The notes under the pieces are model-generated. The model was not told the origin of the DNA. It saw nothing but the letters and a program-made list of their open reading frames with translations, and searched no databases. The position numbers and the translations under genes were made by a program. Below, one piece after another: positions 3,105 through 18,691 of a stretch of 23,431 nucleotides of DNA. The first letter of the stretch is position 1. Every line of letters starts with the position of its first letter. Where the stretch lies: the IMG/VR virus record IMGVR_UViG_3300021425_002606, positions 1 to 23,431 of that record. One strand, 5' to 3'. Source of the stretch: a virus.

Positions 3105-3154
3105 TATAAATAAACTTTTTTGTGTTATATTGCTATCGTATCGGAGGCTACGAT

Positions 3155-3679
3155 ATGAATACGCAATACAGACTAAGAGAATCCGATCGCTTATGGTTCC
3201 AATATGTAGTACCTACCCTTCGAGATCGCTTTCCTGGCCAATGGAAAACCGAGATAGGAACCGATCGAGATCTGAAGTACGGTATCGATTATACCTATAC
3301 AGAAGGCTCGAAGGAACTCACCGTATCCGCTCGATTATGGAAGTCTAGACCCTGTAGACACTTCGCTCTTAGATGGAAGCGAACCAAGTACCCGGAGATG
3401 GGCTTGGAGATTGCTAGTAGGCTCGATGCCATAAAGAACGGAGGAGAGATATCCGATCTGACTATGGAGGGCTTCCTCTATAATGGTAAGGTCTGGATGG
3501 CAATAATCGATACTCGAAGGCTCTATACTGCGATCGATGGGATAGTACCTTTCCTCTCAGAGTTTACAGTAGAGAATACAGGGCCCGGAGATCTAACCAT
3601 CTTCAAGAGAGCATCTTGGGATCTCTTTTCGGATGGGGAGATAGAGAGGATTATCCTACCCGCAAGAACCGAGCCTTAA
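3155..3679 (+). CDS. Unknown protein, only plus-strand gene; possible nuclease-like fold
   Basis: The 174-residue product begins MNTQYRLRESDRLWF. The start at 3155 is chosen because GGAGG (3143-3147) lies 7 bases upstream. An upstream in-frame start at 3122 has no such site. The central part reads EIGTDRDLKYGIDYTY, then KELTVSARLWK. An acidic residue, then GID, then a beta-strand ending in Arg is reminiscent of divergent PD-(D/E)XK enzymes, but this is a weak resemblance. No membrane segment or signal peptide is visible. It runs against the leftward operon, and its 3' end overlaps the holin gene by 29 bases, tail to tail. An opposed lone gene in a phage is often a regulator, an anti-defence protein or an accessory gene. 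I cannot decide among these. Confidence 0.8.
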   Translation: MNTQYRLRESDRLWFQYVVPTLRDRFPGQWKTEIGTDRDLKYGIDYTYTEGSKELTVSARLWKSRPCRHFALRWKRTKYPEMGLEIASRLDAIKNGGEISDLTMEGFLYNGKVWMAIIDTRRLYTAIDGIVPFLSEFTVENTGPGDLTIFKRASWDLFSDGEIERIILPARTEP

Positions 3680-4584: not shown

Positions 4585-6285
4585 TTACTCTCGGATGGTT
4601 ACGAGAGGGTTATCTTCGATATGGAGTACGTATCTCCAGCGGTTATCGTTCCAAGATTTCGATACTATTTGGCATTTATGCTCTGTTAATCCGACTGTAT
4701 CCGAAGAGATAGCAATAACATCTCCGAGATCTAGATATCCATACTTCGGAGCAGCAGAGATCTCGATAGCATAGTTCCCTAGAGCATGGGCTCTAATCTT
4801 ATCTCTGGCTATCCTTACTGCGGTCTGGAAATCATATACATAAGGAGTCTCGATTACCTTCTCTCGAAGTCCGTACCGGGTATAGGAGATATAGGCTAGG
4901 GGATCTCGATACTTCATAGGCTCATCTTCTGCCAAAGTAGGATCGATAACTATTTGTGATCTGAAGGAACCTAACTGCCCAGCCCATCCGAACCGGATTG
5001 TAATCTTATTGATAATCTCACCTTCGAGAGGAGTTAAAGGGCTTATAATCTCGAACTCTCCACTCTCGATTATGTTATGGGATGGTATAATCTCTTGAGA
5101 GTACGTATAGAGATTGAGAGCAACCTGTATACCCTTCCCTCCGTTCACTACCATAATGGGCAGGAGATCCCAGATATTATCCTTTACCCAATCATATACA
5201 TTTATATCTAGATCGTTAACATAGCCTCCGAACTTGTATCGATTGAGTACTGCTGCTAGCCCTTGCCAAGATGAAAAATCAAAGAATAACCCACTCTTCT
5301 CCAAAGCATAAAGAGAAATATCTATCGCTCCTTCTAATGGGCCTCCACCATCAATATTAGTTAATCCTCCGTTACTCTGGCCCCAAGATGCGTAATAAGT
5401 AAAGGAAAGTTCCGGGCTCGATACTTGGAAGTTATCTAGCTGTACGTTAGTTCCCTCTGGAGGTCCGGCATCTGTAATATAAAAAGGTACGTAGGTATGT
5501 ACAAAGCCCTTGTTATCTACTGCGGTTATCGCATAGTTCGAAAAGGAGCCTCCTTGGCCATCGAAGATCTGGATAACAGAGTTACTCGGACTGTATACAG
5601 GATGGTAGGCTACTTGGAAGTATTGAGTAAGGAGCGTAGTAGTTCCTCCGGCTTGGTAGGCTGGGGCTACATGGAGATCATCATCGAATACTACAGTATT
5701 AGCAGCCTCTCTCGGAGCAGTACCCAGATTACCGAATACGAAAGGAACTACCTTGCCTTTACTCTGTTCTATGATATCGATACTATAGTTATCCTCGATT
5801 ATTACATGCTCGGGCCCTAATAACTTAACTACCCGAACATTAACCGAGTTTTCGATAGTAAAGGATACTGTACCCTTCGGAGCATCCGGAGATCCGAAGA
5901 TCGCTCCGAGTACTCTACCTTTGAATACTGAGAGTTTATCCTGCTGGGTAAAGTCTGTTTTACCATCTTCGATTATCACCATCGAGAGTTCACAGAGAGC
6001 ATCGTTAAGCGTTCTCCCCTTAAGGAACTCCGATACCCAATCTATATCCTCGAAGATTAACTCCATCGAGATAGTATTGGCTTCTAGATCTACTCCGAGA
6101 AGATCGCTCTGTAAATTGATTGGAGGATCGGAGAGGGCTCCTCGATATGGTATCGTAATATTCTCTGCTAGATCTTCGATATCAATAGGAACCGTAGAGA
6201 ACCGATAGATCGCTCCATAATAGGATATATCGAGCACAAAGCATATATCTCCCTGCTCGATGCTCGATTTCGGTATAGTTTCCAT
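4585..6285 (-). CDS. Tail-tip hub / baseplate-like protein
   Basis: The 566-residue protein is the last structural gene before lysis. No signal peptide or membrane segment is seen. It is rich in beta-strand-like sequence. The last 90 residues resemble tail-hub proteins: VYDFQTAVRIARDKIRAHAL, then YGYLDLGDVIAISSD, then QIVSKSWN and a closing beta-strand. That layout (conserved D-x-G-D-x-I/V just before the end) is common in proteins closing the siphovirus tail tube and gripping the tape measure. Translation is coupled to the preceding gene by TAATG at 6285. The N-terminal half is not recognised. The function is inferred mostly from position and the C-terminal pattern. Confidence 0.7.
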   Translation of the reverse strand: METIPKSSIEQGDICFVLDISYYGAIYRFSTVPIDIEDLAENITIPYRGALSDPPINLQSDLLGVDLEANTISMELIFEDIDWVSEFLKGRTLNDALCELSMVIIEDGKTDFTQQDKLSVFKGRVLGAIFGSPDAPKGTVSFTIENSVNVRVVKLLGPEHVIIEDNYSIDIIEQSKGKVVPFVFGNLGTAPREAANTVVFDDDLHVAPAYQAGGTTTLLTQYFQVAYHPVYSPSNSVIQIFDGQGGSFSNYAITAVDNKGFVHTYVPFYITDAGPPEGTNVQLDNFQVSSPELSFTYYASWGQSNGGLTNIDGGGPLEGAIDISLYALEKSGLFFDFSSWQGLAAVLNRYKFGGYVNDLDINVYDWVKDNIWDLLPIMVVNGGKGIQVALNLYTYSQEIIPSHNIIESGEFEIISPLTPLEGEIINKITIRFGWAGQLGSFRSQIVIDPTLAEDEPMKYRDPLAYISYTRYGLREKVIETPYVYDFQTAVRIARDKIRAHALGNYAIEISAAPKYGYLDLGDVIAISSDTVGLTEHKCQIVSKSWNDNRWRYVLHIEDNPLVTIRE

Positions 6286-9200
6286 TACTCAATCTCCTCT
6301 AGGTTCACTGTACTAACCCGAAACATCTCATCCAATCGCTCTTCTCCGAGTACACTCTCTACAGTGATCTCCCCGGTAGTTCTACATAGCATATGAGAAT
6401 CTCTAGCAGTAAGTAAGATCTGATCGTTAGTAGGTCTCTTCTCAATACTGGGAAGATATACTAAGGGCTCCTGATTGTTCAAGTATCGGAAGATGCCCTC
6501 TAGAAGATACGGATCTCCATAGTTGGCTACCGGTTGCGCTCCAGAAGTGGAGGATACTTGCCAGTAATCCGGATTGAGATCGTTTAATCTTGTAGGATCG
6601 ATGGGCTCGGTCCAGGCTATGGAAGCAGTTCTCCGGCCTGCGCTCATCTTACGAGAAAAGAACATACCATCTAGGCTAGATTGGGTCTGGATATTTGGAG
6701 AATAAGTTATCGTTCTTCCTCTTTGGTATTGAGGAGCAGGGAAGGCTACGGAGCCCATTAGCATCGATCCTATCTGGAAATAATCCTCTAATCGATCTTG
6801 AGCACTAACCTCTAACATCCAAGCATATTGCCCAAGATTAACACCATCTAATCTAGATTTAAGGAAGGTAACCGAATCGGGGATTAAAAAGATCTCTCCG
6901 TTCGTTGGAATAGTACTGGGATCGGTAATAGTGGTATCGTATTGGATTACCGCTTGCTTAACTCCGCTGTCTGTACTCCAGATTCCCTCGGAGTTCATAA
7001 TAATCTTAACGAAGGCTACATCTTTCGATACTGGATCATATAATCGAGCTCTCCATCCGATAGCCTCTCCATATCGGAGTAAGAAATCTTTGGTAGCACT
7101 ATTCGAGATAAGGGTATTCCCCTTCTTAATGTACGTACTGGTATAATCTGCAGAAGTATCTACAGTAGCGAAGGTATTCCAGGAGGCTCCGTTCCATACT
7201 TTGATCTTAAATAATCTAAAGTTAATATTAGAGAGATGGATTCCAAACATATCAGAACATCCGAGGCTCTTCTCCGTATCCTGTACTATTGGATCTACGA
7301 AGAGAGGGATCTGCTGTAAGCTTTGATCTGCAGATCTCCATACTATTCTCGGAGATAAAGAGATCTTATGAAAGATATTCTTGATTCCGTAATCATATCG
7401 AGGAGTAATCTTATACTCATCTTCTCCCCTTGCTGGTGCATCCCTAGCAGTAATCGCTAATCCTCCATCGATATACTGATACTCTCCTAGAGGAGGATAG
7501 GTAGCACCTCGAAGAGCGAAATCGAATAGCCCAGCCTCTTCTCCAGAAGAGATGGATACTTCCTGCCAATGAGATCGGAAAGTAAGTGCACCAGAGAAAG
7601 CAAGATGCCCCCATTCGATACGATTACCAGCACCGGAAGCCCCTTTGGTTATCCCGGTGATGGATTGGAGATTCCACTTTTTAGCCTGCGCTCCATCATA
7701 AGTTCGATAATAGATTCGAGCAGCAGTATCCGTAATACCGATTACGATCTCTGTACTGTCTCTCATATCGTGAGTAATGGTAGCCTTAATCCCTGCGCTA
7801 TCTCGTACTTGTATCGTAGAAGGAGAGAACCGAAGTATTAACTCTGTACTGTTTACTGTATCATCTTGAGTAACTCGGAAAGCGATATAATTATTAAGTA
7901 CTCCCCCATTATTAGCATCTACTTGGAGCCTAAATCGGATTACTTGACCCTCTGTAAAATAATTACCGCTATGAGAGTATCGATAGTATCGAGTATTTCC
8001 AGAAGTAGATAGATCTAATCCCTCATTATCGAGAGATTGAGAGCCTGCTCCGAGTGTAGTGTATTGGCTACTGGAACCCGGTAGGACTACTGGAATATAT
8101 GTAGAATCCCACAGGAGATAATTATTACGAGTAGGGGAGATACTTCGAGCAGGGTAAGAGAAAGAACTGTACCCTCCATAAGCAAGCATCCATACACTAT
8201 TAAGTTCATGGCCTATAATCTTAGCTCTTCCTTCGTGTACACAAGAGGAGAGTTTTTTTAATCGATCTGTGTTCGAACCATAATCGAGGATAATACCATC
8301 TGCGCTACTATTACCGGTAGCATAATCCCAAGTTACTCCGAAATCTTCCGAATAGTATCCGATTAATCGACCGTTACCATATTCCTGCGCTACTACCCAG
8401 ATCTTACCATCTTGATACCATGTAGTAACATTACCGAGGGTTAACTGGTCCCCAGTCTTAAGAGCAAAGTTAACTCCACTCGTATCGATCTCATATTGAT
8501 TATCCGCTCTCCAGAAAGCAGAAGAGGCTCGGATACCTGGTGTAGGAATCTTGGTAAAATGGAGTTCATCTTCCTCGGTTAGATATGCAATACCGATAGA
8601 ACCATCCGGAAGGGCTACCGGGCTGGGCTCATGGAATTTACCATCTCCGAAATCAGAGATAGAATCTACGAGAGTAAAAGTAGTACCTCCATCTCTCGAT
8701 ACATACTGCGATAATCGATTGGGGTTAAGGGTTTCCTCAAGTTCGATAAAGAGCACTATAGCATTATCAATAGATACCATCCGCATCTTAACCGGGGTAT
8801 ATGTACCAGTAAAAACTCCTACGTTCAATCCTCTAGAAGAGATCTCCTTCCATGTATCCCCATTATCGATACTTCGATGCACCTTTATATTAGAGGAGGT
8901 TTCTGTAGTGTATTGGAAGTAGGCTACCAAGAGGCTCCCATCCTGTAATCGAGTAATCGCTGGGATAGCATCAGTAGTAAAAGTACCCGGTAAAGATACG
9001 AAGGTATTAAGATTAGCGATCGCTCCGTTCTTCTCTTGTCTAGATATAGATACTGTGTGTACGTTTCCAGTAGTTTCTCTCTCCGATACTACCCAGAGAG
9101 TACCATCGAGGGAGGCTACGCAATCGGAGTAAGTGTATCGAGCAGTAACCGGAGTAGAAGAGTAGATCCAATATCCGGCCTCTGTAAGAATATAGGGAGC

Positions 9201-9470
9201 ATCTTGGCCAAGATCGATGCTATCCTCTCCCTTCCAAGTAAAGAGAGCATCTGCAGGGAGCCCACCTTGGATAGTATTAAGGGTAATCTCTTCGGTTTGG
9301 GTTCCAATTGAGGATACAGTTAGATTAACACCTTTGTTCTGGGCTTCTGGTACTCCGCTTCTCGGATTGGCTTGGGAGTAGTTTGCTTGAGCATCCCAGA
9401 GATTATCCTTCGAGATGGAGATAGAAGGGATTAGGAACCCTCTTAGATAGTCTGGTGTTATATTGGCCAT
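6285..9470 (-). CDS. Large tail-tip protein with sialidase-type Asp-box propeller
   Basis: This 1061-residue protein is the largest here and the best candidate for receptor contact. Residues about 100-440 form repeating beta-sheet units with three Asp boxes of the S-x-D-x-G-x-T-W type: SIDNGDTW (200-207), SRDGGTTF (258-265) and SEDFGVTW (374-381). Between them lie strand motifs such as TRLQDGSLLVAY (173-184) and PVALPDGSIGIAY (284-296). Asp boxes stabilise beta-propeller blades in sialidases and other glycan-handling proteins. Residues about 480-640 look like a jelly-roll (LamG/ConA-like) domain. The C-terminal 400 residues are beta-rich and unrecognised. I did not identify the arginine triad needed for sialidase catalysis, so binding rather than hydrolysis is as likely. 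The gene starts one base after the tape-measure stop. Confidence 0.78.
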   Translation of the reverse strand: MANITPDYLRGFLIPSISISKDNLWDAQANYSQANPRSGVPEAQNKGVNLTVSSIGTQTEEITLNTIQGGLPADALFTWKGEDSIDLGQDAPYILTEAGYWIYSSTPVTARYTYSDCVASLDGTLWVVSERETTGNVHTVSISRQEKNGAIANLNTFVSLPGTFTTDAIPAITRLQDGSLLVAYFQYTTETSSNIKVHRSIDNGDTWKEISSRGLNVGVFTGTYTPVKMRMVSIDNAIVLFIELEETLNPNRLSQYVSRDGGTTFTLVDSISDFGDGKFHEPSPVALPDGSIGIAYLTEEDELHFTKIPTPGIRASSAFWRADNQYEIDTSGVNFALKTGDQLTLGNVTTWYQDGKIWVVAQEYGNGRLIGYYSEDFGVTWDYATGNSSADGIILDYGSNTDRLKKLSSCVHEGRAKIIGHELNSVWMLAYGGYSSFSYPARSISPTRNNYLLWDSTYIPVVLPGSSSQYTTLGAGSQSLDNEGLDLSTSGNTRYYRYSHSGNYFTEGQVIRFRLQVDANNGGVLNNYIAFRVTQDDTVNSTELILRFSPSTIQVRDSAGIKATITHDMRDSTEIVIGITDTAARIYYRTYDGAQAKKWNLQSITGITKGASGAGNRIEWGHLAFSGALTFRSHWQEVSISSGEEAGLFDFALRGATYPPLGEYQYIDGGLAITARDAPARGEDEYKITPRYDYGIKNIFHKISLSPRIVWRSADQSLQQIPLFVDPIVQDTEKSLGCSDMFGIHLSNINFRLFKIKVWNGASWNTFATVDTSADYTSTYIKKGNTLISNSATKDFLLRYGEAIGWRARLYDPVSKDVAFVKIIMNSEGIWSTDSGVKQAVIQYDTTITDPSTIPTNGEIFLIPDSVTFLKSRLDGVNLGQYAWMLEVSAQDRLEDYFQIGSMLMGSVAFPAPQYQRGRTITYSPNIQTQSSLDGMFFSRKMSAGRRTASIAWTEPIDPTRLNDLNPDYWQVSSTSGAQPVANYGDPYLLEGIFRYLNNQEPLVYLPSIEKRPTNDQILLTARDSHMLCRTTGEITVESVLGEERLDEMFRVSTVNLEEIE

Positions 9471-9471
9471 C

Positions 9472-11481
9472 TTAATACCCTCGTATTCCTACTTGCTTAG
9501 TTTTTCTTATTCCGAGATCTGCTGCGAACCTTCCGAAATGTTTAAAGGGTTGGATTACTACGGTCTGAGTTGTGGGAGCTTCTCCCTGCTGGAGATTGCG
9601 AACCCCTTGCTCTCCTCCGATTCTCCTTACAGTAGCTCTATCCAATACTGCCTCTCCTCGCAATACTCTAGCCCCCATCTCATCTGGGGCCATCCCTCCC
9701 ATGTGGAATTTCACTTGGGGGGCTGGTTGGCTAGCAATTACTGCCGCTTGAGCAGTTCCGGTAGCGATTGCGAATCCTGTCATGATTGGAGCCAATACTG
9801 GCCCATATCCTTGGGCTTTCGCTACGTTCTCTGCAGTAGTCATCGCTACTTCAGCCAGAGAAGCGGCCTTGGATAGTTGGAAGAGGGCTATCGCTGCTTT
9901 AGATCTACGCTTTAGGGCTTCTCTCTCTTTCTCCGTAAGGCTATCTAGTATCTCTTGCTGCTTTCTACCTGCCTCTACATCGATAGTATTGATCTCCATC
10001 TTCTGTTCCATCAATTGCTGGAGGCTCCCAGTAAGAGCAGAAAAGGAATCGTTAATCATTCTAGAATTTTCTAATTGAGATTCTGTAATACCTAGGATAG
10101 TTTCTTCTTCTTTCTCTAGGTTCTCCATCTTACCCTGGTGTCTTAGGGCTTCGATTGCCATAGCCGCCTCGGCTTCTCTATCGGTAGCGATACCGAGCCT
10201 AGTAATAGCTTCTATCTCTGCATTAATGCGATCTTGCTGGGCTAGTTTCTTCTTCCCTTCATCACTGAGGAAGGCTTCTGCCATAGCCCGATCCATCTTA
10301 TCCTGTAGGGCTTTCTCCTTCAGAATATCATCAGAGAGAGCGAAAGCCTCTTCTAGAGCATCGATAGTTTTTTCTTCTGCTTGTGCTGTTTTCTCGGCTG
10401 CTTGTGCTCTTCTTTCTGCTTGTTCTGCTGCTTCTTCGTTTGCATCTGCAAGCTCTTTCTCAAGAGTTACCATTTCCATAGCAAGATTAACGCTTTCTTC
10501 TTGCATTGCTTGAATGACTTGCTTCTTTTTCTCTTCTTGAGATATTTCATTTACCAATATTTTCTCTAAATGTAATAGAGCAGTGGTAGACTGGATACTA
10601 ATATCTGTCAGATCCAAAGTATTAGATATCGTATCCTGTTGTAATTGTAAGGTACGGAGCCTATCTTTCTCATCTTCAGATAATGCTACATTTCTAGCTT
10701 GACCACCTTTTAGATAAGCCTCCTGTAGGGCTTTTACTGTTTTCAGTAAACTCTCATTATTTTCTATTGCTTCTTCTGTAGCTTGAATATTAGTAATAAA
10801 TGCTTCGTTAGCAGATTCCCCAGCCTGCTCCAAATTATATTCATACTCGGAAATCTGTCCTGTTAATAACTTAAACTCTAATCTCTGCATACGTAGCTTA
10901 TTAGCAGCATCTTCGAGATTCTCTTGAGATGATTGCAGAGTATCATTAAGAGCGTTTTGGGCTTCTCGTAATTCTAAAGTTAATTCTCTAGCGTTGGATA
11001 GTTCTGCCTCATACGAGGTGTAGATGGTTACCAATCCTGCAATAATCCCCGTAGCAATCATCATAATCGGATTCATGGATTGTAGGTTTTCTAACAGACC
11101 AGTACCAGCAGCAGAAGCATCGGAAAATAGTTGTATACTTTCACTCAATTCGGGATTAAAAATACCCACAGTTTCAGCCAGAGAACCGAAGGCACCTTCA
11201 GCCTCTGCTCCCGATTCTCCTATTTGGTCTAATCGAGAACTAGCATCATCTGCGGCCTCTTCTAGTCCCTCAATTTCTTCGGCTGCTCTGCTAGCTGCTT
11301 CTGCTGCTGCTTCTGCTGCCCTTCTGGCTGCTTCTTCTGCGCTCTGTAATTGATTATCTAGAGCGTTAACCATATCTTGAGCCTGTTGCTCAGTGATATT
11401 CGGTAGTTCTTTAAGTTGCTTGATTAAATCCTGTAAATCTGCTCTGTAGGAGATGGATATCGTTCTGCGTTCTTCCATCAT
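9472..11481 (-). CDS. Tape measure protein
   Basis: The 669-residue protein sets tail length and lies in the tail lumen. Its N-terminal half is an Ala/Glu/Gln-rich coiled coil. A hydrophobic segment at about 137-155 (NPIMMIATGIIAGLV) is followed by more coiled coil. Another apolar helix region (GPVLAPIMTGFAIATGTAQA) precedes a C-terminal GARVLRGEAVLDRATVRRIG motif that is common at the end of tape measures. By the known relation of about 1.5 angstrom per residue, the tail would be near 100 nm (inference). It overlaps the gp10-like gene by ATGA. The N-terminal coiled-coil part has fewer TCGA words than most of the window, perhaps only because of its amino-acid bias. Confidence 0.93.
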   Translation of the reverse strand: MMEERRTISISYRADLQDLIKQLKELPNITEQQAQDMVNALDNQLQSAEEAARRAAEAAAEAASRAAEEIEGLEEAADDASSRLDQIGESGAEAEGAFGSLAETVGIFNPELSESIQLFSDASAAGTGLLENLQSMNPIMMIATGIIAGLVTIYTSYEAELSNARELTLELREAQNALNDTLQSSQENLEDAANKLRMQRLEFKLLTGQISEYEYNLEQAGESANEAFITNIQATEEAIENNESLLKTVKALQEAYLKGGQARNVALSEDEKDRLRTLQLQQDTISNTLDLTDISIQSTTALLHLEKILVNEISQEEKKKQVIQAMQEESVNLAMEMVTLEKELADANEEAAEQAERRAQAAEKTAQAEEKTIDALEEAFALSDDILKEKALQDKMDRAMAEAFLSDEGKKKLAQQDRINAEIEAITRLGIATDREAEAAMAIEALRHQGKMENLEKEEETILGITESQLENSRMINDSFSALTGSLQQLMEQKMEINTIDVEAGRKQQEILDSLTEKEREALKRRSKAAIALFQLSKAASLAEVAMTTAENVAKAQGYGPVLAPIMTGFAIATGTAQAAVIASQPAPQVKFHMGGMAPDEMGARVLRGEAVLDRATVRRIGGEQGVRNLQQGEAPTTQTVVIQPFKHFGRFAADLGIRKTKQVGIRGY

Positions 11482-11939
11482 AACCTCCGTACTAAATCAT
11501 CTGCGAGGGCTTTCACTACTCTATCGGCATCTGTTCTCTGTGGTTTTATCATGAGTTCTTCAGATACTCTTATTCCCGTTCTGTATTGTATATTTGCACC
11601 AGAGTTGTTTTTAGAATTCTTACCAAACTTAATAGCCCAAGCATAAGGAGCATTATTTCTAAGATATCCCTCGAAAAAACCACCTTGCACAATACGAAAA
11701 CCACGCTCGAACTTCTTCCAAGAGCCCTTACTGGTTTCTCTTATTACAGTTGTAGAGCCAGAGGTTCTAGTTATGGGTTGTCTGACAGGCCAATTCTTCT
11801 TAGCTTCTCGCTCGATCTTTTCTAAAGATGATTCGATTTCTCGTTTTAGATTGGGGGCTACAGTATCTAAGAATCCTGTGTAGAACTGCTGAAGATTCTG
11901 ATCTATTTCTATACTGGCTCTATTACTTCGTATTGTCAT
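11478..11939 (-). CDS. HK97 gp10-like tail component
   Basis: The 153-residue protein has the layout of HK97 gp10-type minor tail proteins. An N-terminal helix (NLKREIESSLEKIEREAKKN) leads to a W-P-V-R-Q turn where the family usually has A-P-V. The middle carries Thr/Ser/Gly-rich strands, then NNAPYAWAIKFGKNS, where the family has Y-A-x-x-x-E/K-F/Y-G. A final helix holds DADRVVKALADDLVRR. These proteins act in tail completion or at the head-tail joint. Its usual place is nearer the tail-tube gene. Here it lies between the chaperone and the tape measure. The start overlaps the end of the frameshifted chaperone by 17 bases. Confidence 0.65.
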   Translation of the reverse strand: MTIRSNRASIEIDQNLQQFYTGFLDTVAPNLKREIESSLEKIEREAKKNWPVRQPITRTSGSTTVIRETSKGSWKKFERGFRIVQGGFFEGYLRNNAPYAWAIKFGKNSKNNSGANIQYRTGIRVSEELMIKPQRTDADRVVKALADDLVRRL

Positions 11940-12491
11940 ATTTACCCTCTGTGATCTGTTTTATTCTAGCCCTTTTTATGCGCTCTTGTCTATCTTTGAG
12001 ACTTTTAGGATCTTCCAAGGATAAACGATATTCGGCTAAGAGAGATATCTTGAGATCTTCAGAGAGTGTATAATACCATAACGGATCCTTACCCCATCGG
12101 AGAGATATCCGTAATGCTAGAAGATCTAGTGATCCTCTGCCCCCTGCGTAAAATTTGCTCTCTCTTCTACCTCGGCCTCTTTCGGTATTATCTTGATCAT
12201 TTCAGCCAATACTAAAGAGCCCATCTTATACACTTGAGCAGGAGTAACACCGGCCTCTAATAATCTATCCAGGATCTTATGCCCATAAGCAATTGGATCT
12301 CCACTATTCAGATTGTAAGCAGGTAATACTCGCTTGTGGTCTACGGATACCGCAATAGCAGCAGCGCAAAGCCTACCAAGTTGGGCTCGATTCGGATCGC
12401 TCCCCCAGATCGCTACGAAGTCCAAGCAAGTAGCAATCGAAGAGGGGATCTTTCCCTCGTGGGTTCCAATTTTTCCAAGATAAAATAGCAT
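11923..12491 (-). CDS. Tail assembly chaperone, long (GT-like) -1 frameshift product
   Basis: Ribosomes that slip one base back after F114 (codon at 12152-12150) enter a frame open to a TAA at 11925-11923. This adds 75 residues and gives a 189-residue fusion. The extension starts YAGGRGSLDLLALRISLRWG and includes KDPLWYYTLSEDLKISLLAE, a pattern typical of the T part of siphovirus chaperones (W-G x-x-P x-x-x-x-x-L x-x-x-x-x-x-L-L-A-E). It ends in a basic helix. The added part has no good start codon of its own and fills what would otherwise be a non-coding gap of nearly 190 bases. In lambda the T part recruits tail-tube subunits to the G-coated tape measure. Confidence 0.88.
12126..12491 (-). 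CDS. Tail assembly chaperone, short (G-like) product
   Basis: The 121-residue product lies just before the tape-measure region and after the tail-tube gene, where the lambda G-like chaperone is found. It is mainly helical, with VTPAQVYKMGSLVLAEMIKI as the clearest helix pair. It ends seven codons after a -1 slippery heptamer. The short form should coat the tape measure together with the longer fusion protein during tail assembly and not stay in the virion. The ATG at 12491 follows GGAGG closely. Similarity by sequence alone is weak, but position plus the slippery site makes the assignment convincing. Confidence 0.85.
   Translation of the reverse strand: MLFYLGKIGTHEGKIPSSIATCLDFVAIWGSDPNRAQLGRLCAAAIAVSVDHKRVLPAYNLNSGDPIAYGHKILDRLLEAGVTPAQVYKMGSLVLAEMIKIIPKEAEVEERANFTQGAEDH
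12150..12156 (-). promoter_or_regulatory. -1 ribosomal frameshift site (slippery heptamer)
   Basis: On the coding strand the bases read A AAT TTT in the zero frame (12156-12150), a canonical X-XXY-YYZ heptamer. The zero-frame stop comes eight codons later (TAG at 12128-12126), and the -1 frame is open for 75 codons. A short hairpin, CTAGA-TCT-TCTAG, lies about 20 bases downstream. Whether it stimulates slipping is unknown. Confidence 0.85.
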
Positions 12492-14969: not shown

Positions 14970-15902
14970 TTATACCTGAGTAGCGATCTCAACACCGCGA
15001 GCATCTTCTAAGATGGCCATACCTAAGTAAGCATGCCCTACAACCTTAGTAAGAGCCTTAGCAGCATCACGATCCATCTCTACCATAACTTCACCCATTT
15101 CCATAGCCTCAACGGCACCAGGAAGAGCATTAGGCATACCAGTAGCATAACCGATAGCACCAGGGCAGAACATAGCACCAGCATAGTTAGAACCGTTATC
15201 AGTTACATAAGAACTAGTATAGATCTCAACACCCATAAAAGTACCTTTATAGTGAGAGCCCTTAGCAGAGATAGCCTCGTAAGAAGCAGGAGTAAAGGTT
15301 AAGATACCGCTTTCATTACGGATTGAATCTTGCAATTCTGCATACTGGGCAGGATGCAATACACAAACATAAGGACCAGGAGCACCTTTATTAGAGTCTG
15401 CAGCTTCCAAGGCTTGGATAGCATCTACCCATACATCTACAGTAAGAGCAGAAGCAGATCCTACCTGAGCAGTAAAACCACCGAACAAAGCAGCAGTTAA
15501 CTTAGCGAAAAGAGCATCATAAGATTTAGCGATATGCTCAGCGATACGGAAAGGATCGATATCAGCACCCATACCAGTCATAGAAGCAAGATCGGTAATA
15601 GAATAAGCCAAAGATTGTCGTTTACAGACTACATCTACATGAGAATCTACGAGAGCCTTGTTTAAGACTGCATCGGCTTCGGTTCCTGCGTTGAATTCAG
15701 AGAAGCCCGATTCTCCATCCAAGAAAGCTTGTCGTACTCGGATAGTATCTGAGCCCATTCCGTTAATACTTCCTACGAAGTCTACGAAAGGAGTGTTTCG
15801 AAGGTTTACAGAATCCTTCAAGAGTAAGCGGATTTCTGCAGATATCATCTGGCTTAACCGAAGGTCTCCGATAAGCCCGTTATTAGTAATTTCATTTGCC
15901 AT
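14970..15902 (-). CDS. Major capsid protein (HK97-fold type)
   Basis: The 310-residue protein is the likely shell subunit. It follows scaffold and precedes neck genes, and it has the expected size. The N-terminal arm (MANEITNNGLIGDLRLSQMI) leads to VNLRNTPFVDFVGSINGMGS. The middle has the helix LFAKLTAALFGGF and the strand-loop PYVCVLHPAQYAELQD typical of the P-domain and A-domain pattern. The end reads HAYLGMAILEDARGVEI. No prohead protease gene is seen in the window, so maturation may not need cleavage. Codon use changes sharply near residue 105: before it glycine is mostly GGA, after it almost only GGT, with GCT and CGT. It stands alone between two terminators, with a candidate promoter of its own. 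The ribosome-binding site is weak (GGTG). Confidence 0.9.
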   Translation of the reverse strand: MANEITNNGLIGDLRLSQMISAEIRLLLKDSVNLRNTPFVDFVGSINGMGSDTIRVRQAFLDGESGFSEFNAGTEADAVLNKALVDSHVDVVCKRQSLAYSITDLASMTGMGADIDPFRIAEHIAKSYDALFAKLTAALFGGFTAQVGSASALTVDVWVDAIQALEAADSNKGAPGPYVCVLHPAQYAELQDSIRNESGILTFTPASYEAISAKGSHYKGTFMGVEIYTSSYVTDNGSNYAGAMFCPGAIGYATGMPNALPGAVEAMEMGEVMVEMDRDAAKALTKVVGHAYLGMAILEDARGVEIATQV

Positions 15903-15979
15903 GATTACACCATAGTAAGGGGAATAAAAAGAAGTTTCTGGGCTCTTCTGCTGTTTCGGGAGCGACCCTACCCACTAGT

Positions 15980-16012: not shown

Positions 16013-16039
16013 AAAAAAAACCTCCCCGAAGAGGGGAGG
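16013..16039 (-). terminator. Strong intrinsic terminator between fibre and capsid genes
   Basis: On the minus strand CCTCCCC (16039-16033), loop TCTTC, then GGGGAGG (16027-16021) is followed by eight T (16020-16013). The stem is all G-C or A-T pairs and the T run is uninterrupted. It lies about 50 bases after the fibre stop. A second, weaker pair GGGGAG/CTCCCC lies just before it (16051-16073) and is followed on the plus strand by TTTTT. Confidence 0.88.
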
Positions 16040-16090
16040 AAGGAGAGTGGGGGAGGTACGACCCTCTCCCCTTTTTGAGGAGATTACATC

Positions 16091-17458
16091 TTACAAAGAC
16101 ACGACAATTTCCAAACCAGTAACATCCTTAACAGACTTAACCTTAACGTTATTGGAATCTACCAATTGAACATCCAATTGGATCTTGTCACCGTTAGAGT
16201 CATAAGCAGATACATGGATAATCTTTTCACCTAATTGATGGTTCAAAGTAGCCCAAGTATTAGCAGCCAAGTTCTGAGGAGCGAAGGTAGAACGGAAATC
16301 AGATTTAGATACTAACATCTCACCAGTACTACTACTGTAAGTAAGCATATTACCAGTAGCAGGATCGGCAGCGATAGCACTACGGGCTCGAGCATTGGTA
16401 AAGTACAGATTAGTACCTTCGGTTACATCATCAGTATCACCATTAAACGAGATTACACCAGAAGCATAAGAGATAGCAGTACCACCGCTCAAGTGAGCAT
16501 CTACCAGAGAATCAGCATAGAACTTGTTAGTAGCTCCTGCCAATTGAGCGATATCATCAGTATTAGCATCCAATGAGAATTGACCACCACCATCCCAAGA
16601 TAATCCTTGGCCTGCGCTTAACTGAGTGAATACACCAGACAACGGAACAGAAAGAACCCCGTTAGCATCCTTAGAGAGCAATTGGATATCTTGACCGCTC
16701 AAAGTAGCAACAGATAAAGCACCACGAGCACGAGCATCGGTAAAGTACAGGTTAGTACCTTCAGCGATATCATCAGTATCAGCAGTTAAAGAGATAGCAC
16801 CACCGGAATAAGCAAGTCCAGCACCTTCTACAGAGATAGCACCTTGAGCACGAGCATTGGTAAAGTACAAGTTAGTAGTACCTTCGGAGATGCCATCGGT
16901 ATCAGTATCGAGAGAGAAAGTACCGTTAGCATTATCATAAGCAAGACCAGTACCAGCAGCGAAGAAGCCTCGGATCTCACCTTGATCAGCAGTGAACTCA
17001 CCAGTAGAGGCATTAAAATCGATACCAGCAGAAGCAGATAAAGAGCCTCGGATCTCTGCATCAGTAACATCAGCACCTTCGATCTCGGTGAAGTCTGTAG
17101 CATCTCCAGCAGTTCCACCATTATGGATCCAAGTTTCAGTCCGACCAGAAACAGCAGTAAGAACGATAATATCTCCTTCTTGCTTCTCATCTCCATTAGT
17201 GTAGTTAGCAGTAACCCAACCAGACAAAGAAGTAGCAGTAGTATCTACGCTTACATCTGTAATAGTCAGAGGCTTAAGCTTAAGTTGCTTCTCACCGTTT
17301 ACAGTTACGAGCTCTGCATAATTTGCGGAATCTGTAGCGATACCGACTACGGCATTTGCTTCCAAGTAGGCTTTAGTTACAGCGTGGTTACCAGCGGTAG
17401 GATCTTCGTTAAGTTGTACGACCCCTTCGAATATATTTGTAGGTGCAAGAAATTGCAT
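16091..17458 (-). CDS. Repetitive fibre protein, probably head fibre
   Basis: The 455-residue protein starts MQFLAPTNIFEGVVQL, then DPTAGNHAVTKAYLEAN, a phrase common at the start of phage fibres. The shaft has units built on GEIRGFFAAGTGLAYDNANG and the repeated TDDIAEGTNLYFTDARAR (three close copies plus one divergent copy, TDDIAQLAGATNKFYAD). The C-terminal 50 residues (LNHQLGEKIIHVSAYDS onward, then DSNNVKVKS) form a small beta domain shared with the 72-residue protein upstream. I chose the ATG at 17458 because GGAG lies 6 bases before it. The in-frame ATG at 17470 has no site. It lies between scaffold and capsid genes and uses highly biased codons, which suggests many copies and hence a place on the capsid. 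Tail attachment is the alternative. Confidence 0.85.
   Translation of the reverse strand: MQFLAPTNIFEGVVQLNEDPTAGNHAVTKAYLEANAVVGIATDSANYAELVTVNGEKQLKLKPLTITDVSVDTTATSLSGWVTANYTNGDEKQEGDIIVLTAVSGRTETWIHNGGTAGDATDFTEIEGADVTDAEIRGSLSASAGIDFNASTGEFTADQGEIRGFFAAGTGLAYDNANGTFSLDTDTDGISEGTTNLYFTNARAQGAISVEGAGLAYSGGAISLTADTDDIAEGTNLYFTDARARGALSVATLSGQDIQLLSKDANGVLSVPLSGVFTQLSAGQGLSWDGGGQFSLDANTDDIAQLAGATNKFYADSLVDAHLSGGTAISYASGVISFNGDTDDVTEGTNLYFTNARARSAIAADPATGNMLTYSSSTGEMLVSKSDFRSTFAPQNLAANTWATLNHQLGEKIIHVSAYDSNGDKIQLDVQLVDSNNVKVKSVKDVTGLEIVVSL
16380..16915 (-). repeat. Internal repeats of the fibre shaft
   Basis: Three stretches coding for T-D-x-x-x-E-G-T-N-L-Y-F-T-x-A-R-A recur at about 16385-16440, 16730-16785 and 16853-16915. 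They share long runs such as GGTAAAGTACA on the plus strand. The last copy has one extra codon (GTT repeated for TTNLYF). A fourth copy near 16505-16565 is divergent. These are coding repeats of a beta-structured shaft, not a mobile element. Confidence 0.85.
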
Positions 17459-17507
17459 TTTTAACTCCATGTAAAGATTAAGAGGGTACCATCCCTCGCT
17501 CTCTATA

Positions 17508-17726
17508 CTATCTCAAGATTATCTCTCCGGAGAGTGAAATTTGGAAAGATATTAGAACACTATTGGAATCCGTATGGGATACTTCACCTTCTGCGATAGT
17601 CCCATCTGAGAGGATTATCTGCACCATTGGTTTGTATCCGAGATTATGATTAATGAGTACTTGAGTACTATTGGAAAAGGAGTGGATCTGCGGTCTAGTA
17701 GAACCCGGAGCAAAGTATAAGGCCAT
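17508..17726 (-). CDS. Small beta protein, stand-alone copy of the fibre C-terminal domain
   Basis: The 72-residue product reads LINHNLGYKPMVQIILSDG, then EVSHTDSNSVLISF and a closing strand. The N-H-x-L-G start, the S-D-G or S-N-G turn and the D-S-N-x-V centre match the last 50 residues of the neighbouring fibre (NHQLG, DSNGD, DSNNV). This small domain is common in phage fibres and adhesins. Here it stands alone, with a 20-residue lead. It is coupled by TAATG to the gene before and lies 49 bases from the fibre. A decoration protein or fibre cap or adaptor is likely (inference). Confidence 0.75.
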   Translation of the reverse strand: MALYFAPGSTRPQIHSFSNSTQVLINHNLGYKPMVQIILSDGTIAEGEVSHTDSNSVLISFQISLSGEIILR

Positions 17727-18034
17727 TATTCCTCCTCGAAGATGAGAACCACATCAGCAGAGGAAGAGCTCTTGGTAGCGATATAGATATTAGGGCTTCG
17801 GTTTCTACCCTTAGCGAGATGAACCTGCATATAGGAACCCGCTGCCAAGGGGACTTTATCATTACCGAGGATTACTCCATCTGTACCAGTATCGCTCCAG
17901 TGTATTTCGTGCTGCTCGCATCCGATCGTTACTTTCCGAGCAGTTTTCGGAAGTTGGATCTCGGTAGCAGTCTGGTTCGCAGTGAAAACTTTCACTTTCG
18001 GGTATGTATTGGAACTTTGTAGATCTAGTGACAT
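17726..18034 (-). CDS. Small beta-rich protein, possible head decoration protein
   Basis: The 102-residue product has no membrane segment or signal. It is predicted by eye to be mostly beta-strand, with alternating patterns in KVKVFTANQTATEIQLP, KVTIGCEQHEIHWSD and ADVVLIFEEE. I do not recognise a family. Its place right after the scaffold gene and before the fibre set matches the usual spot of capsid decoration (cement) proteins in lambda-like phages. Start: AGGAGGT lies just before the ATG at 18034. Stop: TAATG with the next gene. Confidence 0.7.
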   Translation of the reverse strand: MSLDLQSSNTYPKVKVFTANQTATEIQLPKTARKVTIGCEQHEIHWSDTGTDGVILGNDKVPLAAGSYMQVHLAKGRNRSPNIYIATKSSSSADVVLIFEEE

Positions 18035-18055: not shown

Positions 18056-18691
18056 TTATAGGGTTGTTCTTCGCTGGGCTTTCCAAGCCTTCTCTATCTC
18101 TGCTCGATTGGCTCGGTAAAACTCTGGATCGCTAATACGAGAAAGGATATCTCCGCTCTGTACTGGTGCTGGTTTCGCTCCGGTATTCGTTTTCGGAGGA
18201 AGGAGAGTAGGAGCCTCTGGGGCTGGGGCCGCTTCTGTCACCATTGGAGATGCTTCTGCGCTTTCTGTACTGACTTCTGGAGCCTTCTTTGCTTGGAGAT
18301 GGGGTCTAAGTACCAGAGGAGCCTCTTCGGGTTTCTCTTTGATTCCCTTAATCCAATCTTCGAGGGTTGCTTCAGTCTTACTACGTTGATAGGCCCATTC
18401 TACAGCCTCTCGAAGTTCGGGATCGGTGAAGCCTTGCTCGGATAGCATAGATACTCTGGTATACTTGCTCTCTGCATCCTGTAGAGATTGCTCGAGAGTA
18501 GATACTTTCTCTTGGAGCTTCGAGATCTTCTCTAGTTCTCCCGATTGGTTATCCATCTGCTCCTGGAGGGCTTTCGCTTGCTCTTCGGCTTGGATTGCTC
18601 GTGCGCTTAGTTTGGAGATTCGATCCTTAAAAGCAGATTCGATATCGGCTTTCAATACGTATTCTACTCCTTCATGGGTTATTGTTTTCAT
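18056..18691 (-). CDS. Capsid scaffold protein
   Basis: The 211-residue protein should guide capsid assembly and then leave the head. A short beta start (MKTITHEGVEYVLKADIES) is followed by a coiled coil (about 23-80, ISKLSARAIQAEEQAKALQ and LQEKVSTLEQSLQDAESK). A small helical part comes next, then a Pro/Ala/Glu-rich linker (about 120-175). The C-terminal basic helix (FYRANRAEIEKAWKAQRR) is the usual capsid-binding element of scaffolds. Position between portal and capsid genes agrees. No protease domain is fused to it. The start overlaps the previous gene by 20 bases and has GAGG close before the ATG. Confidence 0.88.
   Translation of the reverse strand: MKTITHEGVEYVLKADIESAFKDRISKLSARAIQAEEQAKALQEQMDNQSGELEKISKLQEKVSTLEQSLQDAESKYTRVSMLSEQGFTDPELREAVEWAYQRSKTEATLEDWIKGIKEKPEEAPLVLRPHLQAKKAPEVSTESAEASPMVTEAAPAPEAPTLLPPKTNTGAKPAPVQSGDILSRISDPEFYRANRAEIEKAWKAQRRTTL

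Follow-up and report, generated by a model that had tools for sequence, protein, structure and literature searches.

The gene at 16091..17458 on the minus strand of IMG/VR virus record IMGVR_UViG_3300021425_002606 probably encodes a head fibre or decoration protein that is exposed on the capsid exterior and likely trimeric. We call its 455-aa product, which has full-length relatives in viral contigs, FIBRE, and the whole 23.4-kb stretch of DNA analysed the window. Judged from its sequence, we would describe FIBRE as a new sequence family that probably works like a head fibre: head fibres are already known, and this family appears undescribed. A preliminary description had proposed a capsid fibre from codon usage and gene position. 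That reading is strengthened by a codon bias conserved among relatives, fixed synteny, a terminator and a leader hairpin, fibre- and cement-like proteins occupying the same slot in other genomes, and a conserved tip.

The window represents a siphophage-like genome whose minus strand encodes a terminase, a portal, a scaffold candidate, the major capsid protein (MCP), a tape measure and tail proteins. FIBRE lies between the scaffold candidate (18056..18691, minus strand), so labelled from its position and a weak coiled-coil match, and the MCP gene (14970..15902, minus strand; Pfam Phage_capsid_4). Two small genes, 17508-17726 (sm72) and 17726-18034 (sm102), separate FIBRE from the scaffold candidate. 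FIBRE is more than 4.6 kb away from the tape-measure gene (9472-11481) and from the tail genes that follow it, in line with the earlier assignment of FIBRE to the head block. FIBRE is thus found outside the tail-tip gene group that follows the tape measure, where a tail fibre would be expected. The phage collection searched contained no close relative of this phage, and an MCP search of phage records returned a single distant relative, DSL-LC06, in which the scaffold is followed directly by the MCP. Bacterial genome contigs, searched with MCP patterns, yielded no host. A plus-strand ORF of 185 aa at 3122-3679 runs opposite to the remaining genes.

The longest FIBRE frame (17470-16091) spans 459 aa. 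Since Met5 (17458) is the invariant start among relatives and is preceded by a GGAG Shine-Dalgarno-like site (17465..17468, minus strand), the gene boundaries 16091-17458 given previously are right. In the 459-aa numbering, the protein consists of an N-terminal segment, a conserved domain reaching to residue ~150, a repeat shaft (~150-392) and a C-terminal domain (393-459). The shaft contains about four copies of the motif T-D-D-I-x-E-G-x-N-L-Y-F-T-x-A-R-A, one of them degenerate; the repeats and the distinct terminal domain noted at first sight are therefore both present. The full-length monomer model is weak (pLDDT 67, pTM 0.28) and predicts mixed alpha/beta repeats and a beta C-domain. Sequence searches detected no solved relatives of FIBRE, and a Foldseek search of the PDB with this weak model gave no match at E <0.001 and listed none to a beta-tulip base or gp8.5 fold. 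Among the viral Foldseek matches in BFVD, several carry the name tail fibre or tail protein. The full-length TM-scores are low, so that BFVD names, 'capsid decoration protein' among them, give no more than weak hints.

The strongest codon adaptation in bacteriophages is that of head genes (PMC2266997). We scored each gene with the MCP as reference, using the own MCP of each relative. In the window, the codon index is 0.73 for the MCP and 0.67 for FIBRE, and no other gene exceeds 0.55; the Nc values of FIBRE (36.9) and the MCP (37.6) lie below those of the remaining genes (41-60). Against a null of synonymous codons drawn from other genes of the window, the match of FIBRE to the MCP reaches z = 12.2 for the whole gene, 10.7 for the shaft, 4.8 for the N-domain and 4.2 for the C-domain, which corroborates the initial claim that its codons are as biased as those of the capsid gene. 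Because the non-repeat N- and C-domains each exceed chance, duplication of repeats is ruled out as the source of the codon match. Across 83 related contigs, the mean index is 0.64 for FIBRE, 0.60 for the major tail protein (MTP) candidate and at most 0.56 for other genes represented by more than a few sequences. FIBRE comes second in 46 of 68 genomes, and second or third in 24 of the 28 genomes of a second clade. The gene after the MCP is unbiased in the window, as are sm72, sm102, the scaffold candidate and the MTP candidate; these last four indicate that codon bias follows copy number inexactly.

RNA elements are found on both sides of FIBRE. Ahead of the gene lies a leader hairpin, GAGGG-AUGGUA-CCCUC (17482..17497, minus strand). 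Stems of five or more pairs occur at this position in 69% of 54 distinct relatives versus 6% in shuffles, and their sequences change while complementarity is kept. Just after FIBRE, an intrinsic terminator (16013..16042, minus strand) is formed by a stem at 16042-16021 and a subsequent T-run; it is present downstream of FIBRE in 89/89 relatives. Taking codons and RNA elements together, we infer high, apparently very high, expression of FIBRE. The MCP has no clear Shine-Dalgarno site and is preceded by a covarying leader RNA (15934..15978, minus strand). This 45-base element occurs once per genome, always before the MCP, in the relatives searched. Its covariation score is 0.255 versus 0.090 in shuffles (0/500) and also exceeds all slid controls. 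It matches no Rfam family at its gathering score, and we consider it a candidate for a new cis-regulatory RNA. Occurrences of the pattern in L122, L156, L159, L167 and L185 fall inside an unrelated coding gene and were taken as chance.

Gene order around FIBRE is nearly invariant. Among the 34 loci that were selected by MCP alone and had enough upstream DNA, FIBRE is immediately ahead of the MCP in 33 (the exception is L043), a conserved place beside the MCP, as would be expected of a head fibre. The repeat shaft matches the PHROG 697 cyanophage structural proteins (E 3e-17), and a cyanophage structural protein encoded alongside neck genes has repeats of the same type. These best described repeat relatives are encoded beside head-tail adaptor and head closure genes, and the T4 whisker gene has a similar neighbourhood. 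On this ground FIBRE could be an appendage of the neck, the collar (whisker-like) or the tail side, with its gene among head genes by chance, which we regard as unlikely: such a structure would need few trimers, yet the mean codon bias of FIBRE exceeds that of the MTP candidate across relatives, the MCP adjoins FIBRE in all but one of the selected loci, and phage fibres commonly contain the repeats in question. The PHROG 697 proteins also differ from FIBRE in their length of ~2000 aa or more and their neck-gene position, and no C-terminal domain in common with FIBRE was found in them.

The base and the tip of FIBRE are equally conserved among relatives; the shaft alone varies, and the length is near-constant. 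Identity to the window averages 0.71 for FIBRE; it falls to 0.59 in the 1061-aa tail gene and to 0.46 in the tape measure. The combination of conserved base and variable tip that marks receptor-binding tail fibres is not what we observe. It is therefore quite improbable that FIBRE is a receptor-binding tail-tip fibre displaced in the genome, despite a tail-fibre architecture of N-terminal domain, repeats and terminal domain and despite the several Foldseek viral matches bearing tail names: its tip is conserved as much as its base, other large genes follow the tape measure and vary more, and FIBRE is always in the head block. A tip so strongly conserved speaks against variable receptor binding and suggests that it is a capsid-binding end or contacts an unvarying ligand. 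The high expression, head location and capsid-surface role proposed in the preliminary description are supported by the comparative evidence; binding of cells or mucus is speculation. Least probable of all is that FIBRE is a low-copy accessory with some other function and owes its codon match to common ancestry, to a local mutation bias or to mRNA structure. The loose link between codon bias and presumed copy number in this genome speaks for that reading, yet the flanking sm72, sm102 and the gene after the MCP are unbiased, and the bias recurs in two clades, as fits translational selection of phage head genes (PMC2266997).

The small neighbour sm72 (17508..17726, minus strand; 72 aa) lies directly upstream of FIBRE in 83/83 FIBRE loci with enough upstream DNA and resembles its C-terminal domain. 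Both match phrog_21918, and a profile comparison aligns them end to end (E 0.0011), with a probability of only 20%. We propose with moderate confidence that they are distant paralogues. Solved-structure sequence matches of sm72 were unrelated or weak. The second neighbour, sm102 (17726..18034, minus strand), has no solved relatives by sequence and is predicted to form a single beta-sandwich or jelly-roll (pLDDT 93); this matches a common jelly-roll arrangement, from which we draw no function.

Relatives collected via the MCP leader RNA and via divergent MCPs differ in what occupies the slot before the MCP. In one clade it contains sm72 and FIBRE, the codon bias is again high, and sm102 is undetected. 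Another has sm102 and proteins of 254-275 aa, and in further relatives sm102 is accompanied by a 136-138-aa protein and a 416-aa fibre. In L157, the 137-aa protein and the 416-aa fibre have a C-terminal stretch in common (39% over 57), and the small protein approaches the Pfam families XM1 gp53 minor capsid (25.2 bits, cut-off 27) and Phage_cement_2 (22, cut-off 24). Its homologues in L188 and L189, the two copies tested, have no Pfam match, which makes the cement assignment tentative. The L224-L238 clade carries an unrelated 605-aa fibre (e.g. L232:2383-4200) whose gene runs opposite to the head genes; its best PHROG is 'head decoration' (E 1.5e-33) and its codon bias is only moderate. Given this fibre on the other strand, small forward ORFs were rejected as the main occupant. 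The slot is empty in L043, L239 and L240. These empty, unrelated-fibre and cement-like states show that the slot is exchangeable and accessory and has been repeatedly filled by surface-type proteins. The FIBRE module is itself accessory: in relatives whose head genes are related, it is missing or another fibre- or cement-like gene stands in its place. Dinoroseobacter phage R5C has a small-plus-large pair, similar by Foldseek, between its portal and coat genes; the text of the R5C paper contains no virion proteomics for this pair. A tentative and rather doubtful extension is that the slot between the scaffold and MCP genes serves for the exchangeable display of proteins on the capsid: a short protein and a long fibre, paired by the same terminal domain, would compete for the same capsid sites and set fibre density. 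At L043:5980-6351, a 123-aa protein is encoded between g218 and g255, and no homologue was noticed in the window. Its homologues in distant clades have codon usage near that of the MCP (0.67-0.78 in many), so that it may be another decoration protein.

As a head fibre, FIBRE would be translated at a near-MCP rate, judging from its codons, from a message framed by the leader hairpin and the terminator. It would then join the assembled head via a conserved end domain and project its repeat shaft, the sequence of which would be free to vary. As a stand-alone relative of the C-terminal domain, sm72 might occupy equivalent sites or cap the fibre. The proposed role is similar to that of Bacillus phage phi29 gp8.5, a dispensable accessory head fibre that is trimeric at quasi-3-fold sites (PMC7602432). 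We found no sequence match to gp8.5, and the phi29 fibre combines a coiled coil with a beta-tulip base, in contrast to the mixed alpha/beta repeats and beta C-domain predicted for FIBRE. The head fibres gp21 and gp29 of crAss001 are bound to the capsid in many copies by a short N-terminal segment (PMC10172136); they are much shorter than FIBRE, and no sequence relation was found. For the capsid fibres of phage 7-7-1, a base, a repeat shaft and a knob have been proposed; eleven fibres at the vertices were seen attached to flagella, and the protein was not identified in that paper (PMC12796354). This layout resembles that of FIBRE. The genes of Phage_cement_2/XM1 gp53 proteins lie beside the MCP, as does FIBRE; the sub-threshold match comes from a distant relative's slot, whereas FIBRE and sm72 have no Phage_cement_2 match. 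The FIBRE-bearing phages, uncultured and small, occur in many metagenomes. If the head-fibre reading is correct, a conserved, apparently very abundant fibre of this kind would point to a general capsid-surface role, such as keeping particles close to cells or surfaces. The exchangeable slot allows different surface proteins to be compared on related capsids.

Two features of the tail region deserve mention. The 1061-aa gene after the tape measure (6285-9470) contains BNR-like repeats and matches an NCBIfam Leptospira lipoprotein family at E 5e-8, below the cut-off of that family. Before the tape measure, at 11478-12126, a gap of ~190 bases between g121 and g153 is conserved in 53 relatives, and its size would suit a tail assembly chaperone extension produced by frameshifting.
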